Assembly: GCA_012517235.1 (NCBI GenBank)
Contig: JAAYVI010000117.1
Coordinates: 64,001-121,328, forward strand
DNA from: Elusimicrobiota bacterium
GTDB taxonomy: Bacteria; Elusimicrobiota; Elusimicrobia; Elusimicrobiales; UBA9959
Direction: 5' to 3'
Length of the DNA: 57,328 bases
The notes beneath the pieces are model-generated. The model searched no databases, had not been told where the DNA came from, and saw only the letters and a list, made by a program, of their open reading frames with translations. Position numbers and translations under genes: made by a program. Within the stretch, counting starts at the first letter, position 1; each line of letters starts with the position of its first letter. This document shows, one piece after another, positions 39,825 through 57,328 of the stretch.

Positions 39825-40297
39825 AATTAAATTTTTTTGAATTATTTAAAGTATTTTTTTCTTCCTTTCATTATCTAATCTTTCCACATACATCCATACA
39901 TATATAAGTCCGTACGCCTATGTTTCTACGCATCTAATATATGCTCTCTTGCTATTCTCGCCGCTAAAAAGCCGACTAACAATGTCCTCAAGATTTAGCG
40001 AGTAGCTTTCGGTAATTTCTCGCCGGCCCCATTGGGAAACCAGTCCCGTCGGTTTCCCCCGATAAATCGGGCCCCCCTTCCGCTACGGGCCGTCTTCAAA
40101 ACCGCCGAAAGCTTTTGTATCCCTATAACCTTTACATCTCTTTTATTATATTTTCGCTCGAAAACGCAAGCTCGCATTTTTTGCTAATCATCTAATCTTC
40201 CAATCTTCTAATCGTCTAATTCCATTATTTACCGATTATCCTTTCCTCCGATTATCGTCTTATTTTAATGAAATTTCAAAAATGATATCATATTGAT
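39825..40297. other. 473-nt gap between the E1-like gene and moaD, with repeat and hairpins
   Basis: No supportable gene. It holds the dispersed repeat described at 40082-40218 and, left of it (about 40020-40080), a GC-rich block with perfect inverted repeats: GGGAAACC pairs with GGTTTCCC around a 9-nt loop, and CCCGATAAATCGGG forms a hairpin. A 60-codon ORF on the minus strand (39995-40177) runs through the repeat and is not credible as a gene. The last ~80 nt are AT-rich and may carry the moaD promoter. Confidence 0.7.
40082..40218 (-). repeat. Dispersed repeat, copy A
   Basis: About 137 nt, minus orientation. A block of 33 nt (40082-40114, GCTACGGGCCG...CGAAAGCTT) is identical to the inverse complement of 57296-57328, and the rest matches 57191-57295 with substitutions, ending in a run of (G)ATTAGA/GATTGGA-like heptamers. 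Orientation relative to copy B is inverted. The similarity probably continues left past 40082, but copy B runs off the window. No transposase or terminal repeat structure is seen. Confidence 0.85.
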
Positions 40298-54914: not shown

Positions 54915-55511
54915 TTATTCGCAGATTAAATCTTTAATCGAGGCCAGCTCTCTTTGATATGATATCCGATCTTCGCAGAAAATTTCATAATCTTTTCCTA
55001 AAACATCAATATGATTTTTAAAAGAACATATGTTTTCTTTTTGGCTTGTAAATTCTCCGTAAGAAGAATGAGGCCAATCTTTGGGATGAGAAGCTAAAAA
55101 GGCCGTAACCGGATTTAAATGAATATATCTTGTAAGGTGTAAAAGATAAGATTCGTTTTTAATATGTATTTTTTTGCTTCTTCCTTGCCATAAAGGCCCG
55201 GCTCTTTTATGTTTTAAATTGAAATATCTCGTATAGCCGTCCAAAAGCTTTGCGCAAAAAGAAGAAATATCTTTTTCGCTTTCTGCATTTATTATCAAAT
55301 GAAAATGAGTAGGCATTAGGACATAAGAAATAATATCTAAAGTCTTTTCGCCTTTTATCTCGTTAATATCATAATCTCGAGCCCAATACATCGAGAATGA
55401 ATATCGCTTTCTAAAAGAATAAAATTTTAAGGCAAAAATAAACCTTTTATAATCCAAATCTTCGTTAAATATCTTATACCCGGCTATACTCTTATTAAAA
55501 ACATGAAACAT
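54915..55511 (-). CDS. REP-associated tyrosine transposase (RAYT, Y1_Tnp)
   Basis: 198 residues. A single-domain HUH/Y1 transposase of the RAYT type: the histidine pair in MPTHFHLIIN (about 87-95), the catalytic Tyr in HLTRYIHLNP (about 128-134), and the RAGPLWQGRSKK block. RAYTs bind and nick REP palindromes; two lie directly 5' of this gene (55523-55555 and 55589-55621). GGGGGAAG precedes the ATG. No IS ends or target duplication are seen, so it is probably a fixed, domesticated gene. Confidence 0.93.
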   Translation of the reverse strand: MFHVFNKSIAGYKIFNEDLDYKRFIFALKFYSFRKRYSFSMYWARDYDINEIKGEKTLDIISYVLMPTHFHLIINAESEKDISSFCAKLLDGYTRYFNLKHKRAGPLWQGRSKKIHIKNESYLLHLTRYIHLNPVTAFLASHPKDWPHSSYGEFTSQKENICSFKNHIDVLGKDYEIFCEDRISYQRELASIKDLICE

Positions 55512-55522
55512 ACTTCCCCCAA

Positions 55523-55555
55523 AACCTGTTATAACCTACGAGGTTGTAACAGGTT
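55523..55555. repeat. REP-like palindrome 1
   Basis: AACCTGTTATAACCT and AGGTTGTAACAGGTT around a 3-nt loop ACG: 15-bp arms with one mismatch. It is 12 nt upstream of the RAYT ATG (minus strand gene) and shares its core GTTATAACCT with palindrome 2. Likely substrate of the transposase. Confidence 0.85.
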
Positions 55556-55588
55556 AAAGTATAAGATACATAGGGAAAAAAATCAAGA

Positions 55589-55621
55589 CTTATGTTATAA
55601 CTTGCGAGGTTATAACAAGGT
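55589..55621. repeat. REP-like palindrome 2
   Basis: GTTATAACTT and AGGTTATAAC around loop GCG; core arms of 10 bp with one mismatch. Same loop position and core as palindrome 1, 33 nt away, like a BIME/REPIN doublet. It lies between the RAYT gene and the terminator of the porin. Confidence 0.82.
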
Positions 55622-55631
55622 TAAAAAGAAG

Positions 55632-55659
55632 AAGGCCCGCGGGCAAACCCGCGGGCCTT
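55632..55659 (-). terminator. Rho-independent terminator after porin
   Basis: AAGGCCCGCGGG and CCCGCGGGCCTT form a perfect 12-bp stem with loop CAAA. Leftward reading continues in CTTCTTTTT. It stands about 25 nt past the porin stop (55685). The GC-rich stem contrasts with the rest of the sequence, as expected of a strong terminator of a highly expressed gene. Confidence 0.93.
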
Positions 55660-57178: not shown

Positions 57179-57190
57179 TATATGACAAAT

Positions 57191-57328
57191 TAGACGATTA
57201 GAGGATTAGATGATTGGAGGATTGGCAAAGAAGCGAGATTGCGTTTTCGGGGCGAAAACATAATACGAGAGATACAAAAGAACATCTTTATATATAAGCT
57301 TTCGGCGGTTTTGAAGACGGCCCGTAGC
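57191..57328 (+). repeat. Dispersed repeat, copy B (runs off the window end)
   Basis: 138 nt to the window end. The last 33 nt are identical to the inverse complement of 40082-40114; the rest matches copy A with substitutions. Begins TAGACGATTAGA, then heptamers GATTAGA/GATTGGA, then AT-rich spacer. The copy probably continues beyond the end, as copy A continues to the left of 40082. Confidence 0.85.

Follow-up and report, generated by a model that had tools for sequence, protein, structure and literature searches.

The window, by which we mean the whole 57,328-nt stretch of Elusimicrobiota DNA analysed here, carries a gene for a putative Y1/HUH transposase (RAYT A) with two palindromes at its 5′ side, and it raises the question of whether gene and palindromes form a REP-RAYT system and, if so, of which kind. 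Detailed knowledge of REP recognition and of the choice of cleavage sites by RAYTs is limited to GTAG systems of a few Proteobacteria. Bertels 2017 is said to deal with groups of RAYTs. We found no paper on REPs or RAYTs in Elusimicrobiota in the open-licence PMC text, and three there that name Omnitrophota together with RAYTs.

RAYT A, its palindromes and the site between two barrel genes

RAYT A is a TnpA-REP-like protein of RAYT type, judging by its sequence and model, and probably a DNA-cutting enzyme. It matched Pfam Y1_Tnp with 27.3 bits (cut-off 23), and both histidines of the HFH motif and Tyr129 occupied invariant columns among 36 aligned proteins. The tyrosine sits in YIHLNP, which completes the class 2 TnpAY1 feature set (HuH, Tyr, Y---NP). 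The preliminary description had read an intact HUH/Y1 transposase with an HFH pair and a catalytic tyrosine from the letters, and the ORF, the Pfam match and the invariant columns agree with it. E. coli TnpA-REP (4er8) was the top solved structure both in a profile search (E 1.9e-8) and in a fold search with the AlphaFold model (pLDDT 93.5; E 7e-7, TM 0.54/0.64), where the ISDra2 and IS608 transposases ranked after it. The NCBIfam REP_Tyr_transpos match stayed under its cut-off (65.7 vs 80 bits), and a Pfam search gave no match to an HTH family. RAYT A starts about 7–12 residues later than most relatives, and palindrome 1 occupies the position of their first codons and leader.

Features of the RAYT A locus, in positions of the window
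Feature	Position	Strand	Remarks
Outer-membrane barrel-like gene, 432 aa	53598..54896	(-)	Flanking, outside the system; Alginate_exp match below cut-off
RAYT A, putative Y1/HUH transposase, 198 aa	54915..55511	(-)	ORF with ATG start; H69-F-H71 and Tyr129
REP-like palindrome 1, complete	55523..55555		11 nt upstream of the RAYT A ATG; outer AACC/GGTT foot, stem, AACC-TACGA-GGTT apex
REP-like palindrome 2	55593..55622		Stem-loop 55593-55617, GGTT foot 55619-55622
GC-rich inverted repeat	55632..55659	.	Probably terminator of the porin-like gene
Porin-like gene, 425 aa	55685..56962	(-)	Flanking, outside the system; without Pfam match; "porin" is the reading of the preliminary description and our own
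Segment missing from congener G002, 709 nt	54915..55623	.	RAYT A and both palindromes; G002 has 11 other nt

Palindrome 1, AACCTGTTATAACCT-ACG-AGGTTGTAACAGGTT, has 15-nt arms with one mismatch, and its core GTTATAACCT lies at 55528, 16 nt from the RAYT A ATG. Palindrome 2 lies 81 nt from the ATG with its core at 55594. The distances first given, 12 and 78 nt, are close to those measured, and the palindromes are real and 5′ of the gene; the arms of each are mismatched at one position, and their loops have the same polarity, so that the two, 66 nt apart, are direct and not inverted. Searching the window for GTTATAACYTNNNARGTTRTAAC, with as many as 3 mismatches allowed, gave 4 strand matches at 2 places, where shuffles predict 0.03. 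Folded as ssDNA, all four strands of the two palindromes beat 200/200 shuffles (z -5.7 to -6.8). There was no palindrome at the 3′ end of RAYT A.

One edge of the segment missing from the congener is the RAYT A stop codon, and the other lies just beyond the outer GGTT foot of palindrome 2. G002, of the same genus and the only comparable congener at this site, has both barrel genes at 71–73% identity, 11 nt apart. The GC-rich inverted repeat has a counterpart there and thus lies outside the inserted segment. Neither congener (G001, G002) has a close member of the RAYT A subfamily, which makes gain in the window genome the simpler reading; loss of the cassette in the congener is a possible alternative. 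The placement of RAYT A between two outer-membrane barrel genes, noted at the outset, is thus a site where the cassette is present or absent among congeners, in a pattern that fits recent gain. An active or recently active system, as first proposed, is a possibility.

Dispersed palindromes in the window genome and its relatives

The window genome encodes four Y1 proteins, two of them in the RAYT A subfamily: RAYT A and RAYT B, on contig C109, its nearest relative in the genome at 51% identity. RAYT B has its own palindrome on both sides and adjoins tRNA-Val at a site where G002 has 46 nt in its place. A whole-genome search with the 23-nt A pattern (up to 3 mismatches) returned 24 strand matches and its reversed control none. 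Together with the core pattern this gave 13 coordinates, or about 11 A places, with the ends of contigs C68 and C101 counted as one because they are the same stretch. For palindrome B (GTTAACCCTNAGGGTTAAC) the count is about 15: 14 places matched with no more than 2 mismatches, and a weaker match that overlaps appeared when 3 were allowed. A covariance model of A and B, which recovers its 24 input rows by construction, yielded 28 coordinates, one of them (C109:9088) new beyond the pattern searches; very degenerate copies may be missed, since 150 of 653 first-look candidates were scored.

A and B thus total about 26 places and are a small dispersed REP population, outnumbering the RAYT genes by more than 10:1. 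Among 25 A/B places checked, 23 overlapped no ORF of at least 90 aa and 2 overlapped a spurious-looking ORF; many copies stood directly behind stop codons. The proposal that the palindromes are REP-like repeats of the genome holds, as they are dispersed extragenically and do not stop at the two beside RAYT A; the hundreds of intergenic copies named there as support did not appear. REPs usually exceed 100 per genome in the description of Nunvar (2010, PMC2817692), a copy number that A and B do not reach.

Doublets occurred in five places outside the window. Those on C16, C86 and C68/C101 were A-A doublets, 44 nt apart in the same orientation with related spacers, and those on C133 and C135 were mixed A-B doublets at 44–45 nt. 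The C135 doublet was missing from both G001 and G002. All doublets of the window genome were direct, and the REPIN form, with inverted REPs around a conserved spacer, was absent from it. Contigs C68 and C101 end in one shared stretch with an A doublet in it, where the assembly was probably interrupted by the repeat. A different repeat (GATTAGATGATTGG...AAGCGAGATTGCGTTTTCG), also dispersed, often adjoined the palindromes, at 57183-57249 and 40159-40177(-) of the window and near the palindromes of C16, C86, C95, C41, C69 and C40; the window has 2 copies of its 19-nt end, where 0.05 would be expected.

Palindromes A and B have the same apex and foot, and together with the mixed doublets this could mean that RAYT B now moves both kinds of palindrome, with RAYT A as a decaying or satellite copy. 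The missing 3′ REP and the N-terminus, shorter than in most relatives, would suit such a copy. The RAYT A ORF is intact with all invariant residues kept, though, the A and B stems differ, and the A copies are spread about as widely as those of B. We consider a satellite RAYT A unlikely.

We searched 61 genomes for the RAYT subfamily at E < 1e-50 and found 8 carriers. The exact core AACCTACGMGGTT occurred 66 times in G020, 27 in G007, 9 in G000, 3 each in G011 and G012, 2 in G006, once each in G003, G019 and G034, and not at all in the other 52 genomes. Both copies of G006 and 2/3 of those of G012 lay at the RAYT itself, and one carrier (G024) was without this core. Core copies away from RAYT loci were found in 6/8 carriers vs 2/53 non-carriers, and at least two copies, the RAYT's own flanks counted, in 6/8 vs 0/53. 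The palindrome of G007a and G003b (up to 2 mismatches) was found in 19 places of G007, 2 of G003 and 1 each of G005 and G026. Absence of the palindromes from relatives carrying the RAYT had been named as evidence against the system; the exact stem is indeed specific to the window genome, and the relatives mostly have cognate palindromes of their own. G020 has doublets in the REPIN form, inverted and 74 nt apart, with spacers that are nearly identical. The same genome holds a decayed cassette (L192, C16:17432-17762), in which two REP doublets enclose the remnant of a RAYT, its first 38 residues.

Hairpins and protein signature across the wider family

A single-protein scan of genome contigs found no relative, whereas an alignment-based scan found 342. 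The best 80 of these were mostly from Omnitrophota and Elusimicrobiota and also included Auribacterota, Thermodesulfobacterium, WOR-3, Berkelbacteria and others. With four more they form a set of 84 loci, about twelve of which repeat places found earlier. In 48/81 loci (3 of the 84 were dropped for lack of flanks) the two flanks of one gene matched above the 99th percentile of cross-locus pairs; RAYT A itself scored 17, under the cross-locus median of 18. A hairpin was present on at least one side in 59/77 loci and on both sides in 33/77. Hairpin density was 4.18 per kb near RAYTs vs 0.31 far away, where the control sequence is mostly coding; at gene 3′ ends, a fairer control, hairpins occurred at 38/77 RAYTs vs 3/70 other ORFs. 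In several relatives (L069, L071, L116, L119, L159 and others) the TAA stop codon of the RAYT either overlaps the 3′ hairpin at its foot or directly adjoins it, and the window cassette has its edge at this stop codon of RAYT A.

The hairpins share their foot and apex. ACC..GGT was present in 72/106 near hairpins vs 7/46 far ones, and an unbiased ranking of 4-mers at the feet placed AACC first (42/59 loci vs 17.0 expected), with GTAG in 5/59 (9.1 expected), GTGG in 3 (10.7 expected) and GGAG also below expectation. The apex consensus was ACCT-NCG-AGGT, with orientation set by the CG. Loop polarity, classable in 56/106 hairpins, gave no significant inversion between upstream and downstream hairpins (p 0.17). 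Stem distance correlated with protein distance (Mantel r 0.27, p 0.0005, N 57), also under 65% protein identity (r 0.25, p 0.001); part of this correlation could come from shared descent alone.

Among the proteins, THxH was present in 81/84, a signature that is not among the HuH signatures in Table 1 of Quentin 2018 (PMC6006769), and Y-HLNP in 82/84. The same source gives E100, H101 and R104 of E. coli TnpA-REP as residues contacting the GTAG guide. At the corresponding positions, assigned via profile alignment to 4er8, 1 of 83 proteins has the E, and none has the H or the R.

These results bear on two other accounts of the locus. If RAYT A belonged to an ordinary IS200/IS605-type insertion sequence, the palindromes would be subterminal ends and the dispersed copies relics of ends. 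Such an element would share the fold family of the ISDra2 and IS608 transposases, its whole cassette would come and go among congeners, and it could leave decayed cassettes like that of G020. We give this very little chance, as the Y---NP-type motif contrasts with the Y---Q of IS200 transposases (PMC6006769), no near-identical copy exists in the genome, inspection of the neighbouring ORFs showed no tnpB, and REPs far exceed RAYT genes. There is little chance, too, that the palindromes are not RAYT substrates but act in transcription or as RNA, in the role of bidirectional terminators, operators or RAYT leader hairpins. Palindrome 1 does end beside a likely ribosome-binding site, and copies behind stop codons would suit terminators. 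Against this, no T-run follows the window palindromes on inspection, Rfam gave no match at gathering thresholds, the stem is RAYT-specific and recurs on either side of the gene, and the presence of the core follows that of the RAYT. The palindromes may have a regulatory role besides that of REPs.

A probable AACC-footed REP-RAYT system and its known counterparts

We consider it likely that the locus is a REPtron, or REP-RAYT system, belonging to a class with an AACC foot, an assignment that rests on anatomy and distribution. Counting against it are the missing 3′ palindrome and below-median flank score of RAYT A, the small number of copies, the direct doublets, the non-significant polarity test, the sub-threshold NCBIfam match and carrier G024 without the core. 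The preliminary interpretation was largely right, with support for the RAYT type, the dispersed repeats and a cassette present or absent between the barrel genes, and none for hundreds of copies. By analogy with the GTAG systems, a REP that becomes single-stranded, as on the lagging-strand template, would be bound by a RAYT dimer via stem and apex, and the 5′ AACC would act as guide in the place that GTAG has elsewhere. The RAYT would nick near the foot with Tyr129, and two REPs around a short spacer, or around the RAYT gene, would be excised or copied as ssDNA and joined into intergenic sites. RAYTs A and B may each have seeded a small REP population in this way. Because the foot is AACC and not GT[AG]G, it is a fair inference that the cleavage sites would be new, as had been suggested.

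It is about an even question whether the relatives make up a separate REP-RAYT class, mostly of Omnitrophota and Elusimicrobiota but also represented in several other phyla. Guide (AACC for GTAG), apex (ACCT-NCG-AGGT) and guide-reading residues would have changed together in it, so that stem and apex carry specificity; in the window genome RAYTs A and B, whose REPs are related, would then build hybrid doublets. Such a clade, large and with its foot changed, its apex conserved and its guide-contacting residues replaced, would amount to a swap experiment made by nature on the guide code of single-strand transposases, and would widen the range of REP-RAYT systems to little-studied phyla known mostly from metagenomes.

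As in the REPtrons described in PMC2817692, PMC6006769 and PMC8266576, a low-copy Y1/HUH gene lies beside hairpins of which further copies are scattered through intergenic DNA. Further likenesses to those accounts are the coevolution of stem and protein, the presence in one genome of several RAYTs, each with REPs of its own, and the nearest solved structure. In contrast to GT[AG]G REPtrons as described there, the present hairpins have an AACC foot at both ends in place of a 5′ GT[AG]G, a conserved apex and few copies, and RAYT A is without a 3′ REP. The family also has THxH where the REPtrons of Quentin 2018 have D/NHxH (PMC6006769), and it has replaced the equivalents of the three guide-contacting residues of E. 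coli TnpA-REP.

TIRtrons (TIRYTs), in the account of Di Nocera (2013, PMC3733652), likewise combine Y1 genes with GTAG-less, partly self-complementary flanking inverted repeats, in moderately abundant families with dimers and clusters; a GGGGWSAS motif is reported there in many, and most are placed in subclass 2.1 with a C-terminal HTH (PMC6006769). By foot and HTH, the present family differs in its short hairpins with an AACC foot, and RAYT A in having no match to an HTH family.

Atypical GTAG-less hairpins with dispersed copies are also described for TnpAY1 class 3 (CnGA foot, Y-Q type motif) and for subclass 2.6 REPtrons (NH[LIV]H, mostly Bacteroidetes) in PMC6006769, so a non-GTAG foot has precedent. 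Their motifs set both groups apart from the present family, and the passages of that source on them report no AACC foot.

The inverted doublets of G020, with their conserved spacers, resemble the REPINs of Bertels and Rainey (2011, PMC3116915), from which the doublets of the window genome differ in being direct, 44–45 nt apart and partly A/B hybrids. We rejected the idea that such mixed doublets are unprecedented, as hybrid dimers are reported from S. maltophilia (PMC3733652).
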